This document shows, piece after piece, positions 27,357 through 33,652 of a stretch of 64,000 nt of DNA. The stretch is from Chitinophagaceae bacterium (GTDB lineage: Bacteria > Bacteroidota > Bacteroidia > Chitinophagales > Chitinophagaceae). A program made the position numbers and the translations under genes. Position 1 is the stretch's first letter; every line of letters starts with the position of its first letter. The notes beneath the pieces were generated by a model, which ran no database searches, had not been told where the DNA came from, and saw nothing but the letters and a program-made list of their open reading frames with translations. The stretch covers positions 1 to 64,000 of the forward strand of contig JAOAGO010000001.1 in the NCBI GenBank assembly GCA_026415715.1, given 5' to 3'.

Positions 27357-28868
27357 TTATTTAGGAACAGGCAAATCCTGAAAGCTCCAGCTGATGTTGC
27401 CGTCTTTTTCATCTTTCAGTACAATACCCAATTCGGCTAACTGATTGCGGATTTTGTCTCCGGTAACGTAATCTTTTCGCTTACGGGCATCTTTGCGGAT
27501 ATCAATGAGCAAATGCATGACTTTTTCAAAAATTTCCATATCGGCTTCCCGTACTTTCTGAAGACCTAAAATGTCTTCCATATAAGTTTTCATTTTCTTT
27601 TGAAGCAGATGAAAAATTTCGGGAGAAATTTCATTGAGGGCAACGGATTTGTCTTTGAAGGAATTTATGACAGGCGTCAGTTGAAACAGGTTGGCCAGAA
27701 CCTTTGCCGTATTAAAATCATCATTCATAAATTCATCCAGTTCCTTCACTTTAGTATGCACAAAATTTTCCAGTTCCTGATTCCTGTTTTGCGATTCGCC
27801 CTCATGCTTCAGGATCATTAAATGGTCGTAGCTTTCCCACAGGCGTCTTAATCCTTTTTCTGCCGACAGCAGGGCTTCATTGCTGAAGTCAAGCGTACTG
27901 CGGTAATGTGTTTGCAAAATAAAAAAGCGGATTACCATGGGATGATAGGCTTTCTGCAGCAAAGGATGGCTGCCGCTGAAAAGCTGGGTAAGGGTAATAA
28001 CGTTATTATAGCTTTTCCCCATTTTGCGCCCTTCTATGGTAATCATGTTGTTGTGAATCCAATACCGAACGGGGGGGATACCATGGCAGATAGTGCTTTG
28101 TGCTATTTCGCTTTCGTGATGCGGAAACAGCAGGTCCATTCCCCCGCCGTGAATATCAAATTGCGGCCCCAGATATTTTGACGACATGGCCGAGCATTCA
28201 ATATGCCAGCCCGGATAGCCTTCGCTCCAGGGGCTTGGCCAGCGCATAATATGTTCGGGCGCAGCTTTTTTCCATAAGGCAAAATCGGCTTTGTCTCTTT
28301 TTTCTTCCTGGCCTTCCAGTTCCCTTGTGGTTTGAAATAATTCTTCCACTACCCGTCCGCTTAATTTGCCATAATCGTACTGTGCTGCATATTTCTTTAC
28401 ATCAAAATATACCGAGCCGTTTACTACATAGGCATAGCCCGCATCAATAATTTTTTTGATCATCTCGATTTGTTCCACAATATGGCCCGTTGCCGTGGGT
28501 TCGATGGAGGGCGGCAACGTGTTGAACTTTTCCATGGCCCAGTGAAACAGGCGGGTGTATTTCTGAACCAGCTCCATGGGCTCCAGTTTTTCCAGCAAGG
28601 CTTTTTTTGATATTTTATCTTCCGCTTCTCTGCCTTCTTCTTCAAAATGGCCCGCATCGGTGATATTCCGGACATAACGCACTTTATACCCGAGATGCAG
28701 CAGGTAGCGATAAATGACATCAAATGTGATGTATGGCCGGGCATGGCCCAGATGGCTTTCGCCGCTCACTGTGGGGCCGCAAACATACATTCCTGCATAA
28801 CCGGGCACGAGTGGCGTAAAAATTTCCTTTTGGCGTGAATAGGAATTATAGATCTTAAGTGACGACAT
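27357..28868 (-). CDS. cysS: Cysteine--tRNA ligase
   Basis: This class I synthetase charges tRNA-Cys. The HIGH-type motif is HLGH within SGESHLGHARPY, the KMSKS loop is GRKMGKSYNN (KMGKS variant, as in many Bacteroidota), and zinc ligands are in CGPTV, HIECS and FPHHE. The C-terminal DALR-like anticodon-binding part lies after about residue 365. At 503 residues it is slightly longer than the E. coli enzyme. A likely -7 element (CATCTTTG, one mismatch, minus 28934-28927) lies about 60 bases upstream. Confidence 0.96.
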   Translation of the reverse strand: MSSLKIYNSYSRQKEIFTPLVPGYAGMYVCGPTVSGESHLGHARPYITFDVIYRYLLHLGYKVRYVRNITDAGHFEEEGREAEDKISKKALLEKLEPMELVQKYTRLFHWAMEKFNTLPPSIEPTATGHIVEQIEMIKKIIDAGYAYVVNGSVYFDVKKYAAQYDYGKLSGRVVEELFQTTRELEGQEEKRDKADFALWKKAAPEHIMRWPSPWSEGYPGWHIECSAMSSKYLGPQFDIHGGGMDLLFPHHESEIAQSTICHGIPPVRYWIHNNMITIEGRKMGKSYNNVITLTQLFSGSHPLLQKAYHPMVIRFFILQTHYRSTLDFSNEALLSAEKGLRRLWESYDHLMILKHEGESQNRNQELENFVHTKVKELDEFMNDDFNTAKVLANLFQLTPVINSFKDKSVALNEISPEIFHLLQKKMKTYMEDILGLQKVREADMEIFEKVMHLLIDIRKDARKRKDYVTGDKIRNQLAELGIVLKDEKDGNISWSFQDLPVPK

Positions 28869-29089: not shown

Positions 29090-30208
29090 TTATGGCTCTA
29101 ATTTTAAATCGGCCACCAGCATGGAGTGGTCGGAGAGAGGGCGGTTGTTACGCTTAAATTGAACTACTTTAAACCGACGGTCGGCAAAAATATAATCAAT
29201 GCGCAGGGTGGGCAACAAGCGGTTATATGTGCGGCCAATGCCTGTTCCCTTTTTTAAAAAAGCATCCTGGAGTCCGTTTTTAATCAAAAAATAATTGTAA
29301 GAATACGGAATGTCGTTCATATCCAGACAAATGACAGAAGGGTAGGGTGAGTTTTTGGTAACTTCTCTCAAGGTACGGGCATGGATGGCGCGGTATTGAA
29401 TCCCTCTTTTCATTTTTTTCAGCAACGAACCGGAAAAATATACCATACTGTCCTCGCCCTTTGTTACTTTTTTTAACCTTTCATAATCTTGTTGAAAAAG
29501 CTGATAAGATTGGAGATGCGTATTGAATATCCTTATTGTATCATTACGAAAAACAATGTCGGCAAACAGCAAAACCTCAGGTAAGGTAGGTCTCGGGTAG
29601 CGTACCTTACCGCTATCTGCAATCGGAAATTTTGAAAAAATGATTGAGCTGTAATAATGCCGGTCGCCATCTTCGTCGTATGAAAAATAAAAGTACGGAT
29701 AGCCCATCTGTTGAACAGGTGAAATGTTGTCGTAATACAATGAGTCAACAGAAGTATGAAATTCCTGCAGGCATAAAATATCGGCATTTTGCTCACGAAT
29801 CAGGTCCAGCATTTGTTTTCTTTTCATGCTGCCCTCGTTATTGTTTTTTTTCATCTCAATAAAACGGGCTACGTTCCAGCATAAAACCCGCAGCGTGGCT
29901 GAGTCTTTCCCGTGTTGAAAAGGTTTTGGTTTATTGAAAGCCCAAAATACTCTTATATTTTTATAACTCATGGCCAGAGCCAAAACGGAAATGAGCACAT
30001 GGCGAAATTTTGAAAAAACCAGATTCGCCAGCAAAATGATGATATTCAGCAAAAGAAAAAAGGGAAACAAAACCGAGAGCGCCGAAAACGGCCACCAGGT
30101 ATAAGGGTTCAGAAAAGGAGACAAGCAGGAAAGTAACAAAAGCGCTGCTGCGGTTATGGTTACAATCAGCCAAATACTTTTAAAAAAATTCCTAAGCTTC
30201 AGGGCCAT
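29090..30208 (-). CDS. Membrane-anchored endonuclease/exonuclease/phosphatase family protein
   Basis: The start is placed at ATG 30208 (MALKLRNFFKS), the second Met. Residues 12-85 form about three membrane segments. The rest is an EEP fold with its active-site set: Asn in LCWNVARF, Glu in LCLQEFH, His in FNTHLQSY, Asp and Asn in CLDMNDIPYS, then RIDYIFAD and SDHSML. Family members are Mg-dependent phosphodiesterases acting on nucleic acids or phospholipids. The membrane anchor points to a lipid or envelope substrate. The same pattern of EEP next to two rhomboid genes is familiar from Bacteroidota. It ends the rhomboid operon. Confidence 0.85.
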   Translation of the reverse strand: MALKLRNFFKSIWLIVTITAAALLLLSCLSPFLNPYTWWPFSALSVLFPFFLLLNIIILLANLVFSKFRHVLISVLALAMSYKNIRVFWAFNKPKPFQHGKDSATLRVLCWNVARFIEMKKNNNEGSMKRKQMLDLIREQNADILCLQEFHTSVDSLYYDNISPVQQMGYPYFYFSYDEDGDRHYYSSIIFSKFPIADSGKVRYPRPTLPEVLLFADIVFRNDTIRIFNTHLQSYQLFQQDYERLKKVTKGEDSMVYFSGSLLKKMKRGIQYRAIHARTLREVTKNSPYPSVICLDMNDIPYSYNYFLIKNGLQDAFLKKGTGIGRTYNRLLPTLRIDYIFADRRFKVVQFKRNNRPLSDHSMLVADLKLEP

Positions 30209-30315
30209 GTAATGCAATATATTAATTCTGTAGCTGATTCAAAAAAGGAGGAAGGGTAAATTTGAGTGCAAGGTAAAATGAAGCGGAAAAATTCAGCGTC
30301 TTACCGCTCCTGGTA

Positions 30316-31260
30316 TCAAAGTTCATCTTCCGCTCTTTTCAGGATTTCCTTTTCTTCATCGGTCAAATATTCAAATCCTTTTTGATTGATTTTATCCAAT
30401 ATGGCATCAATACGCTCCTGAGTGATTTTAGGCGTTTTTTTGTAAGGCTTAACATTTGATTTGTAAAAAAGTTCTTGTTTGATGGATTTGCCGCGGGCCG
30501 GTTTTTCGGGATGAAAAAGATAGGTGAACCACTCAATTAATCGGTTCATCCAATCGCTCCAGTCGTAACCACGTTTCAGAAAAGTGAAAAACAAAAAGCC
30601 GGTGATGCCGGCGCCCAGCATGGCTCTGAATTTTCCATAATCTGAAATGGCAAGAAACCCTAAGGATATGACAAAATAAAAAACACCGAGCCACCACAGC
30701 GGAATCCCTCCGCCCAGCATGGGAAAAAACCGGTACTGAGGGGCCAGCAGAGTGGTAACTACAGCCACTGCCATCACTCCGCAAGGCGCTAACCCCAGGC
30801 CGAAAGTAGCAATATTAGCCGTTGAGGGAAACAACAGATTGCCCAAAACAAAAAAAAGAGCTCCGCCCCATGCGCCGTAAATATAAACGGGAATGATTTT
30901 TTTATTGCCGGTCAAATCCTGAAGTACCGAACCGAAAGTCCATAACCATAACATATTGGCCAGCGTATTCCAGAAATCGTTGTTGTCGTGCACAAACATG
31001 GCCGAAATCAGCGTCCAGGGTTTTTGGAGAAAACCGGATAATTCGGCTGGAAATGCAAAGAGAGAATACACCTGCTGCTGAAACAACGTAACTGCCAGGG
31101 CTTTGTTTTCCTGATATTTGAAATGCCAGATGGCTTTCAGAAAACCCAGTACAACAAACAGAATCAGGCAGGCCGCAATAAGCAGCAACAGGTCGTTACT
31201 TCGTTTGGATTCGAAAACGGCACGCTGGTATTTTTTTTCCGGGTAAGTCACGATTTTCAC
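30316..31260 (-). CDS. Rhomboid-like protein, probably catalytically inactive
   Basis: The fold of a rhomboid protease is recognisable: six to seven membrane segments, with FVHDNNDFWNTLANMLWLW in the region of the usual HxxxN loop. The tail of the family (ERIDAILDKI, GFEYLTDEEKEIL) is also present. The catalytic parts are altered, however. Where GASAGVMA-like sequence carries the Ser, this protein has LAPCGVMA (Ser to Pro). Where the last helix normally has AHLGGA, it has AMLGAG (His to Met). The paralogue at 31309 keeps both. I infer a rhomboid pseudoprotease that may bind substrates rather than cut them. At 314 residues the length is normal. Confidence 0.75.
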   Translation of the reverse strand: MKIVTYPEKKYQRAVFESKRSNDLLLLIAACLILFVVLGFLKAIWHFKYQENKALAVTLFQQQVYSLFAFPAELSGFLQKPWTLISAMFVHDNNDFWNTLANMLWLWTFGSVLQDLTGNKKIIPVYIYGAWGGALFFVLGNLLFPSTANIATFGLGLAPCGVMAVAVVTTLLAPQYRFFPMLGGGIPLWWLGVFYFVISLGFLAISDYGKFRAMLGAGITGFLFFTFLKRGYDWSDWMNRLIEWFTYLFHPEKPARGKSIKQELFYKSNVKPYKKTPKITQERIDAILDKINQKGFEYLTDEEKEILKRAEDEL

Positions 31261-31308: not shown

Positions 31309-32052
31309 TTAATAAAACATCCTTCTGTTGGTTTTATTCCAGTACAACACAAGTAAAAATCCGGTTAATGCTCCCCCCAGGTGAGCAAAATGTGCAATAT
31401 TATCTCCGGTACTTCCTGACAATCCGCCAAACAGGTCAAGCGCTGCGAGACCCAGCATGGCCCATTTGGCTTTTACCGGAAAGGGAATAAACATGATGAA
31501 CAGCTCGGTGTTGGGAAAAAGGTAGGCAAAAGCTGCAAAAACCCCCATGATGGCACCCGAAGCGCCAAGTGCAGGAGCCACCGCACCCATGTATTTCTTA
31601 ACGTCATTTATATTGTGTTGTTCCAGCGCATGCAGCAGTTGTTCGCATCGCAAATATTGTATGGTTAAATGCAGGGCTGCCGCGCCGAGACCGCACAGAA
31701 AATAAAAAATCAGAAAACGCTGAGACCCCCACACATTTTCCAGCACCCGTCCAAACATCCACAAGGTGAGCATGTTGAACATAATATGAAAAATAAAGGG
31801 GGGCGGTGCATGAGCAAACATGTGTGTGGCCAGCTGATAGGGAAGAAATGTTTCATTGGCGGAAAGAAACCCGTTTTCCGTTAAGAGCTTTTTCAGTTTT
31901 TCCGGCATCAGGGGATACAACATCAGCTTTTGGGTAATGGCAAACTGTTTGTCCAGAACCAATTGAGCCGTATAAACCAAAGCGTTGATGAGAATCAGAT
32001 TTTTGATAACGGGAGGAAAATAATCCGGTTGTCTGTATCTGTAATAACTCAT
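31309..32052 (-). CDS. Rhomboid family intramembrane serine protease
   Basis: This 247-residue membrane protein has the intact rhomboid dyad: Ser in LGASGAIMG and His in AHLGGALTGF. The HMFAHAPPPFIFHIMFNM segment supplies the HxxxN-type loop. About six membrane helices are visible. Rhomboids cleave transmembrane segments within the bilayer. It is upstream of the inactive paralogue by 48 bases on the same strand, and downstream of rlmD by 40 bases, so rlmD, two rhomboids and the EEP gene probably share a transcript. Confidence 0.92.
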   Translation of the reverse strand: MSYYRYRQPDYFPPVIKNLILINALVYTAQLVLDKQFAITQKLMLYPLMPEKLKKLLTENGFLSANETFLPYQLATHMFAHAPPPFIFHIMFNMLTLWMFGRVLENVWGSQRFLIFYFLCGLGAAALHLTIQYLRCEQLLHALEQHNINDVKKYMGAVAPALGASGAIMGVFAAFAYLFPNTELFIMFIPFPVKAKWAMLGLAALDLFGGLSGSTGDNIAHFAHLGGALTGFLLVLYWNKTNRRMFY

Positions 32053-32092: not shown

Positions 32093-33541
32093 TTAAGGTT
32101 TTCTTAGTTTGAGTTGAACAACATTTTCTATATGATGCGTATGCGGAAACATATCAACCGGTTGAACGGCGCATACATCGTATTTTTCATACAATCGTTT
32201 CAGGTCTCTGGCCTGTGTGGCCGGGTTGCAGCTTACGTACACCAAAACCGGTGGCTCAAGGTCAAGAATTTTTTTTACCAGTTTTTCATGCATACCGGCA
32301 CGAGGCGGGTCAGTAATTATCACGTCGGGAAATCCCTGTATTTTGAAAAAATCATCTGCACACACTCTAATGACGTCGCCAGAAAAAAACGCTGTATTTG
32401 TTAAATGGTTGAGTTTTGCATTTTCACGGGCATCCGCAATGGCCTCCTCTATCAGGTCAATGCCCACCACACGGCCGGCTTTTTCGCTTACAAAAATGCC
32501 GATGCTTCCCGTGCCGCAATACAAATCATAAACGGTTTCTTTGCCACTGAGTTCGCAGAAAGTCCGCACAATACTGTAAAGTTTTTCTGCTTGCCGGGTA
32601 TTGGTCTGAAAAAAAGACTTGGGCCCGATTTTGAAATAAAACTTTTCCAGTTTTTCCGTAACATAACCTTTTCCCGAGAAGACAACCGGCTCCAGGTCGT
32701 GCAGACTGTCATTTTTTTTTCGGTTAATGGTATAAAGCCATGTGGTTACCTGAGGGATGGTTTGCTGAAGATGTTCCAGCATTTGCCGTAAGGCCGGAAT
32801 ATTTTCTTCGCCGGCGATAACATTCACCATAATTTCCCCGGTAGTACAGATGCGCAGCTGCACGCTGCGCAGTAGCCCTTCGTGTTTTCTTACATCGTAA
32901 AAAGTAAAATTGTGTTTTTCGGCGTAGGCCCGTATTTCTTCTCTGATGCGATTGGAAGGTTCGGGCTGTAAATGGCAATATTTTATATCTACAATTTTAT
33001 CAAATAATCCTTTGGCATGAAATCCGGCTGCATGTTCCGGCCCGGGATGCCCGGTGCCGCTTGTCTGAGAAGCAGACTCCCTTTTTTGCTGCTGATACTC
33101 TGCCTCGGGTATATATTTTGAAACGCCAAACGTGTATTCCAGTTTGTTGCGGTATAATTTGTCGTGCTCCGCGCCAAGAATCGGAGAAATTTCCGGAGCC
33201 GGAATGCCGGCAATTCTCTGCAATGCATCTTTTACCTGTTGTTGCTTAAAACGAAGCTGAACTTCATAAGGCACCATTTGCCACTGACACCCCCCGCATA
33301 CCCCGAAATGCGAACAGAAAGGCGCTATACGAAGGGAAGAGAGCTCATGAAAATTCAGCGGATAACCTTCTGCCCAGTCTTTTTTGTTTTTATATATATA
33401 CACGTCCACAACATCGCCGGGTACGGTACGTTCCACAAAAACTGCTTTTCCCTGCCATCGTGCAATACACCGGCCTTCCGTGGCAAAATCTTCCATCTTC
33501 AGGCTTTCCAGAATAAGAGGATTTTTCTTTTTTGCAGGCAT
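32093..33541 (-). CDS. rlmD: 23S rRNA (uracil(1939)-C(5))-methyltransferase RlmD
   Basis: RlmD (RumA) methylates U1939 of 23S rRNA with SAM. Near the start is a TRAM domain (to about residue 70). The iron-sulfur cysteines are in FCSHFGVCGGCQ, with a fourth in KYCHLQP. The SAM part follows with YDLYCGTGSIGIFV, DPPRAGMH and the catalytic Cys in VSCNPAT. The start at ATG 33541 (MPAKKKNPLILE) is preferred because an exact -7 element (TACCTTTG, minus 33553-33546) ends four bases upstream, which excludes the longer frame and suggests a leaderless message. Length is 482 residues. Confidence 0.93.
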   Translation of the reverse strand: MPAKKKNPLILESLKMEDFATEGRCIARWQGKAVFVERTVPGDVVDVYIYKNKKDWAEGYPLNFHELSSLRIAPFCSHFGVCGGCQWQMVPYEVQLRFKQQQVKDALQRIAGIPAPEISPILGAEHDKLYRNKLEYTFGVSKYIPEAEYQQQKRESASQTSGTGHPGPEHAAGFHAKGLFDKIVDIKYCHLQPEPSNRIREEIRAYAEKHNFTFYDVRKHEGLLRSVQLRICTTGEIMVNVIAGEENIPALRQMLEHLQQTIPQVTTWLYTINRKKNDSLHDLEPVVFSGKGYVTEKLEKFYFKIGPKSFFQTNTRQAEKLYSIVRTFCELSGKETVYDLYCGTGSIGIFVSEKAGRVVGIDLIEEAIADARENAKLNHLTNTAFFSGDVIRVCADDFFKIQGFPDVIITDPPRAGMHEKLVKKILDLEPPVLVYVSCNPATQARDLKRLYEKYDVCAVQPVDMFPHTHHIENVVQLKLRKP

Positions 33542-33545
33542 CAGG

Positions 33546-33553
33546 CAAAGGTA
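33546..33553 (-). promoter_or_regulatory. -7 promoter element of rlmD, leaderless start
   Basis: TACCTTTG on the minus strand matches TAnnTTTG and ends four bases before ATG 33541. The expected start point of RNA is at or beside the ATG. Confidence 0.6.
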
Positions 33554-33652
33554 TAACAGCACATCTTGCTAAAAAAAATTAAAAAGAATCTGCTTCAGGC
33601 AACTTTCTTTTCCTTTTTCGCTTCTGGCATGTTGTGCAAAACGAATTGCCCG

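Follow-up and report, generated by a model that had tools for sequence, protein, structure and literature searches.

The rhbA-rhbB locus

The DNA analysed here, a stretch of 64,000 nucleotides called the window, comprises positions 1-64,000 of contig JAOAGO010000001.1 from a Chitinophagaceae bacterium (assembly GCA_026415715.1). Its minus strand carries, one after the other, an rlmD-like methyltransferase gene (32093-33562), the gene rhbA for an intact rhomboid protease without a DUF6576 tail (31309..32052), the gene rhbB for an inactive rhomboid with a C-terminal DUF6576 (30316..31260; 314 amino acids counted from the GTG at 31260), a gene for an EEP-family phosphohydrolase with hydrophobic N-terminal segments (29090..30217), which adjoins rhbB downstream, and cysS (27357-28868). 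We assign the gene names rlmD and cysS from the protein sequences. Along this run of five genes the intergenic gaps are 40, 48, 98 and 221 bases, and the spacing together with the synteny makes one transcript likely. Translation of rhbB probably begins at the GTG at 31251 (codon 4), which aligns with the Met of most homologues.

An earlier note on this DNA had pointed to an inactive rhomboid next to an active one. The two genes are indeed neighbours on one strand, and their order, including EEP, is conserved as rhbA-rhbB-EEP in the window's family. All relatives with a family name on record are Chitinophagaceae (Niastella, Terrimonas, Hydrotalea, Ferruginibacter and Segetibacter among them), and we take this to be the family. 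In all 126 family loci that show both rhbA and rhbB the two lie on the same strand, with a median open-frame gap of 13.5 bases; EEP adjoins rhbB in 94 of the 126, and 18 of the remaining 32 are too short to show it.

Active rhomboid proteases (MEROPS family S54) have a catalytic Ser in TM4 and a catalytic His in TM6. The translation of rhbA reads LGASGAIM and FAHLGGA in these two regions, that of rhbB LGLAPCGVMA and FRAMLGAG, in agreement with the motifs given in the earlier note. The catalytic Ser of rhbA is codon 165 (31558..31560, minus strand, in GASG) and its His codon 224 (31381..31383, minus strand, in AHLGG). In alignments with intact homologues His89, Asn93, Ser165 and His224 of rhbA are matched by Asn98, Asn102, Pro159 and Met214 of rhbB: Pro159 (30784..30786, minus strand) and Met214 (30619..30621, minus strand) stand in the columns of the catalytic Ser and His of active homologues, Asn98 in that of GlpG His150, and the Asn154-like position is kept as Asn102. 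The TM4 helix of rhbB (residues 158-172) was searched for Ser and has none, and the only three His of the protein (46, 91 and 250) lie outside the TM6 helix; rhbB therefore has no substitute Ser/His dyad. Another Ser and His in the catalytic positions, the finding that would have told against inactivity, was looked for and no such pair is present. The window genome holds a third rhomboid (L002, on G000:C46), a lone gene without a DUF6576 match that keeps GASG and the His motif SAHF.

The earlier claim that rhbB retains the rhomboid fold and the C-terminal tail is borne out by profile matches and by a GlpG-like model. Pfam Rhomboid scores 42.3 bits with rhbB and 94.1 bits with rhbA (cut-off 22.6), and DUF6576 (PF20216) scores 35.8 bits with the C-terminus of rhbB (cut-off 27.3). 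By Pfam and conservation the tail comprises residues 278-309 (30334..30429, minus strand); the six-helix bundle, delimited by aligning the model to GlpG, comprises residues 20-232 (30565..31203, minus strand). The AlphaFold2 models have a mean pLDDT of 87.0 (rhbB) and 90.1 (rhbA), and both match GlpG (6pjr_A), rhbB with Z 17.5 and rmsd 2.9 over 169 aligned residues and rhbA with Z 17.3 and rmsd 2.7 over 164. Further matches of the rhbB model are iRhom1 (9xy4_A; Z 15.1, rmsd 4.9, 202 aligned residues), chain 7y4w_W from the human complex for ERAD retro-translocation (Z 12.5) and Der1 of yeast (6vjz_C; Z 10.7). By the six-helix fold predicted for it rhbB is thus a member of the rhomboid-like superfamily. 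A phmmer search of the PDB sequences with rhbA or rhbB gave no rhomboid match, whereas the structural search did, and a search of NCBIfam with rhbB gave no family.

Repeated loss of the catalytic dyad within one family

The family search covered 98 genomes, of which 97 matched, and the genus search 42, of which 39 matched. From these rhbB was read in 93 other genera and in 39 species of the window's genus, the window included. Four of the 98 family genomes contributed no rhbB sequence, one for want of a match (G012) and three with only weak matches (G054, G075, G090). Dropped from the rows were the window copies L001-L003 and L127, an arbitrary stretch of the unmatched G012; three partial or second copies (L048, L128, L137) were kept outside the trees.

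The Ser/His dyad is lost in 94 of the 130 family rows of rhbB, in many combinations of residues; of the 126 rhbA rows 125 are intact and one is truncated. Among the 93 genera, 30 keep both residues of rhbB, 32 have lost only Ser, 3 only His and 28 both; for the 39 members of the genus the corresponding numbers are 7, 3, 8 and 21. Ser is replaced by Gly, Asn, Gln, Ala, Thr and others, His by Leu, Gln, Ile, Tyr, Asn and others. Even where the dyad is kept the GlpG His150-like residue is often gone, and all four catalytic positions are intact in only 14 of the 93 genera and in none of the 39 genus members. The suggestion that relatives might share the changes from Ser to Pro and from His to Met did not hold, the substitutions being lineage-specific; L034, the nearest relative of the window rhbB, has Ser and carries Leu for His. 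Of 80 named records, some from genomes that overlap the unnamed set, 63 have an rhbB without the dyad, and all 79 rhbA are intact. Among these records rhbB of Hydrotalea flava and of Ilyomonas limi is dead, with GTGH at the four catalytic positions, and that of Paraflavitalea sp. CAU 1676 has an intact dyad, with HNSH.

How often the dyad was lost was counted on four trees, all of them quick searches with many weak forks. The rhbB tree (130 rows, four catalytic columns removed) requires at least 18 changes of dyad state, at least 9 of them forced by well-supported (starred) branches. With 11 intact outgroup rows added, and with part of genus g1 and eleven rows on long branches removed, there are 19 changes, at least 8 of them forced, or 31 losses if loss is irreversible. 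The CysS tree, which is independent of rhbB, gives 13 changes with at least 5 forced, and the CysS+RhbA tree 15 with at least 8 forced (70 genera each). The overall range is therefore 13-19 changes, 5-9 of them forced. Shuffled labels gave higher means on the four trees (31.8, 36.8, 22.1 and 22.0, respectively), which indicates that the dyad state is, as expected, partly inherited. That the same loss recurred many times beside an intact paralogue within one family is well supported.

We also considered that dead rhbB might be a single old paralogue spread by transfer, and rejected it: dead and intact rows interleave on both the rhbB and the CysS tree, and dead rhbB occupies the conserved site beside rhbA. 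Transfer may still have occurred in single cases. The CysS proteins of L338, L339, L350 and L355 (G086, G095, G028 and G025) are 58-62% identical to that of the window and form a starred clade of their own with a long branch; they were perhaps replaced by transfer.

The inactive copies of relatives are under selection. In the 17 of 19 close pairs with finite dS the dN/dS of rhbB is 0.025-0.148, several of the dS values being above 1 and saturated, and in 18 of the 19 pairs both rhbB are dead; for rhbA the finite pairs give 0.010-0.149. This range indicates strong purifying selection on the dead rhbB of relatives. Since the closest match to the window rhbB is only 54%, the evidence comes from these relatives and not from the window gene. 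Six residues (W82, W105, F109, K290, G295 and L307) do not vary across the 94 dead rows, and three others (G110, G221 and E303) are kept at 0.99. Mean column conservation in dead rhbB is highest, of 11 segments, in DUF6576 (0.67; TM2 has 0.63 and TM4 0.60). It is well supported that rhbB is a rhomboid pseudoprotease, with the dyad lost and selection retained in relatives.

Tail-bearing rhomboids across the phylum

In the sister family f2 rhbB is intact in 30 of 30 genomes (the best 30 of 61 that matched). In the phylum sample DUF6576 was found in 290 of 296 genomes, and the six without a match (G298, G338, G377, G388, G399 and G407) all belong to one genus, g190 of family f37. The 60 loci read from this sample comprise 29 with rhbA and rhbB, 30 with a single tail-bearing rhomboid and one (L251) without a rhomboid. 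Of the 29 pairs, 28 have an intact rhbB and all an intact rhbA; 29 of the 30 lone tail-bearing rhomboids are intact, the exception being L293, whose genome also holds an intact copy. rhbB has both domains of the Bacteroidota proteins that combine PF01694 (Rhomboid) with PF20216 (DUF6576); among the tail-bearing rhomboids read from outside the window's family the intact ones predominate. On the phylum tree the tail-less rhbA rows form one group (support 88) within a clade of tail-bearing single rhomboids (support 99), a nesting that fits loss of the tail by rhbA.

Losses of the dyad occur elsewhere too. In family f43 (L408-L416) all nine rhbB read carry Trp at the catalytic Ser position, together with Ser or Gly at the His150-like and Ala or Gly at the Asn154-like position, a separate, family-wide loss. 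In other classes a second, dispersed DUF6576 protein was found without the dyad in 7 of 7 cases read at full length, from 7 of 21 genomes; two further loci (L449 and L454) are fragments. Each of the seven genomes also contains an intact copy. Where a class has a single tail-bearing rhomboid, the dead protein is found on a different contig or at a distance. Of the seven, one passes the cut-off of Pfam Rhomboid and one falls just short of it; the other five have weaker scores or no match. Their kinship is therefore based in part on the tail and on weak motifs, and some may be DUF6576 tails on diverged membrane domains.

A possible role for the inactive copy and its alternatives

From these findings we propose, with a probability of roughly 0.55, that rhbB is a working pseudoprotease with a non-proteolytic job as holder or adaptor of clients, the protease job being left to rhbA. 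A tail-bearing active rhomboid would have been duplicated in tandem in several classes of Bacteroidota, whereupon one copy, rhbA, would have shed the DUF6576 tail and kept the protease, and the other, rhbB, would have kept the tail. In the window's family the dyad of rhbB would then have become dispensable, because the role under selection was non-proteolytic, and would have been lost many times. The membrane bundle of rhbB may bind or destabilise membrane-protein clients, and the tail, presumably cytosolic by analogy with GlpG, may hand them on to a partner, for instance rhbA or an AAA protease. A rhomboid with two jobs could, once duplicated, divide them between its copies. Such a division would account for dead tail-bearing copies being found where an intact copy exists too, for the tail outlasting the active site, and for lone tail-bearing rhomboids staying intact.

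The adaptor mechanism that we infer has a precedent in YqgP (GluP) of Bacillus subtilis, which in its catalytically dead form still delivers MgtE to FtsH (PMC7231995). Like the job proposed for rhbB, this one is independent of catalysis, and the cytosolic extra domain of YqgP is required for it. YqgP differs in that one protein, its dyad intact, does both jobs, whereas rhbB is a separate, tail-bearing gene without the dyad beside an intact rhbA. One finding speaks against an adaptor: YqgP needs an open pocket for this function, and in f43 the Trp that replaces Ser may fill that pocket.

The earlier note had likened the pair to the iRhoms (RHBDF1/2) of animals. Between TM1 and TM2 iRhoms have a large iRhom-homology loop rich in cysteine; they also have a large N-terminal cytosolic domain and guide the traffic or activity of a metalloprotease partner. 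The comparison stands for the rhomboid fold without a dyad, found alongside active rhomboids. It does not extend to membership, as rhbB is bacterial, has neither the long loop nor a large N-terminal cytosolic domain (its L1, residues 49-95, has about 47 residues and no Cys) and belongs to a set of repeated losses among close genera. Derlins and Der1 are similar in having a dead rhomboid fold with proposed client handling, and they work with a Cdc48/p97-type ATPase; the likeness of rhbB to them is one of predicted fold alone, and its tail is DUF6576, without a known partner of that type. Of the systems compared, YqgP as an FtsH adaptor is the closer, bacterial precedent (PMC7231995). iRhoms are treated in PMC3149277, and further literature drawn on comprises PMC12615303 and PMC2989971.

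The main rival is that of the earlier note, a regulatory pair in which rhbB binds rhbA directly and holds its substrates or restrains it. We regard this as rather unlikely. The constant same-strand, closely spaced arrangement of the two genes in the 126 family loci favours it, and so does the correlation of rhbA and rhbB distances beyond that of CysS. In these mirror-tree tests EEP and CysS served as controls, and the CysS-controlled run left out L123, L024 and L095. The rhbA-rhbB correlation given CysS is 0.27-0.38 depending on the subset, against null maxima of 0.22-0.42; in dead-rhbB genera without a deep clade it is 0.38 (null 95% 0.22, null maximum 0.42). The correlation is weak, however, and is also present without dead rhbB (0.27), and the values vary with the subset, so that we count them as weak evidence only. 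Moreover, the dead second DUF6576 proteins lie dispersed, which means that a dead copy needs no tandem pairing.

A joint action of rhbB and the EEP hydrolase on a lipid or lipid-linked substrate, with rhbA as a mere neighbour, is improbable. EEP adjoins rhbB in about three quarters of the family loci (94/126, with 18 of the other 32 lacking room for it), and the rhbB-EEP correlation given CysS is 0.58 in intact-rhbB genera, but in dead-rhbB genera, the relevant set, it is -0.09. Given rhbA it is 0.54 over all rows and 0.13 without a deep clade.

Still less credible is the view that rhbB is in decay and redundant with rhbA, as its long end branch (0.86 against a row median of 0.48) and the many different residues at the dead sites might suggest; the window CysS branch is likewise long (1.0 against a median of 0.46). 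For relatives decay is refuted by the low dN/dS in close pairs, and retention of the tail and fold residues W82, F109, G110, G221, K290, G295 and L307 in 99-100% of the 94 dead rows also argues against it, as does the window rhbB frame, which is open over its full length. That rhbB is still a protease through other catalytic residues, such as the Cys160 directly after the Ser position, is very improbable, since TM6 lacks His, the Gly two residues before the Ser position is Leu, and Cys160 is displaced by one residue and seldom seen in relatives.

Beyond the adaptor role proposed for rhbB itself we tentatively advance, at rather short of even odds, a wider reading: a phylum-wide rhomboid-DUF6576 receptor with a non-proteolytic function, a bacterial counterpart of Derlins and iRhoms, would repeatedly have turned into a pure pseudoprotease (many times in Chitinophagaceae, once in f43 with Ser to Trp, and as dispersed copies in other classes). 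Wherever a full reading was possible an intact rhomboid accompanies it, and its DUF6576 tail would be the part that recruits the effector. The locus bears on how dead rhomboids such as iRhoms and Derlins arise from proteases. Here active and dead rhbB orthologues share synteny in neighbouring genera, so that the steps of loss and the remaining constraint can be compared directly, and the system is testable in cultured species. DUF6576 gains a genomic context and a testable role, and an annotation of ordinary appearance turns out to conceal a bacterial rhomboid pseudoprotease. Our literature search, which left most subscription papers outside its reach, found no description of inactive Bacteroidota rhomboids or of DUF6576.

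Two observations concern DUF6576 in other settings. At seven loci of family f4 (L218, L219, L222, L223, L225, L226 and L251) DUF6576 matches strongly to open frames 84-95 amino acids long, with no rhomboid found near them within the stretches fetched; the tail may also occur as a small protein of its own. Another type of rhomboid (L221, L305, L306 and L307) has a fuller DUF6576 match and an intact HNSH and lies elsewhere in the genome; among its carriers are three family genomes (G004, G029 and G031) that also carry rhbB.
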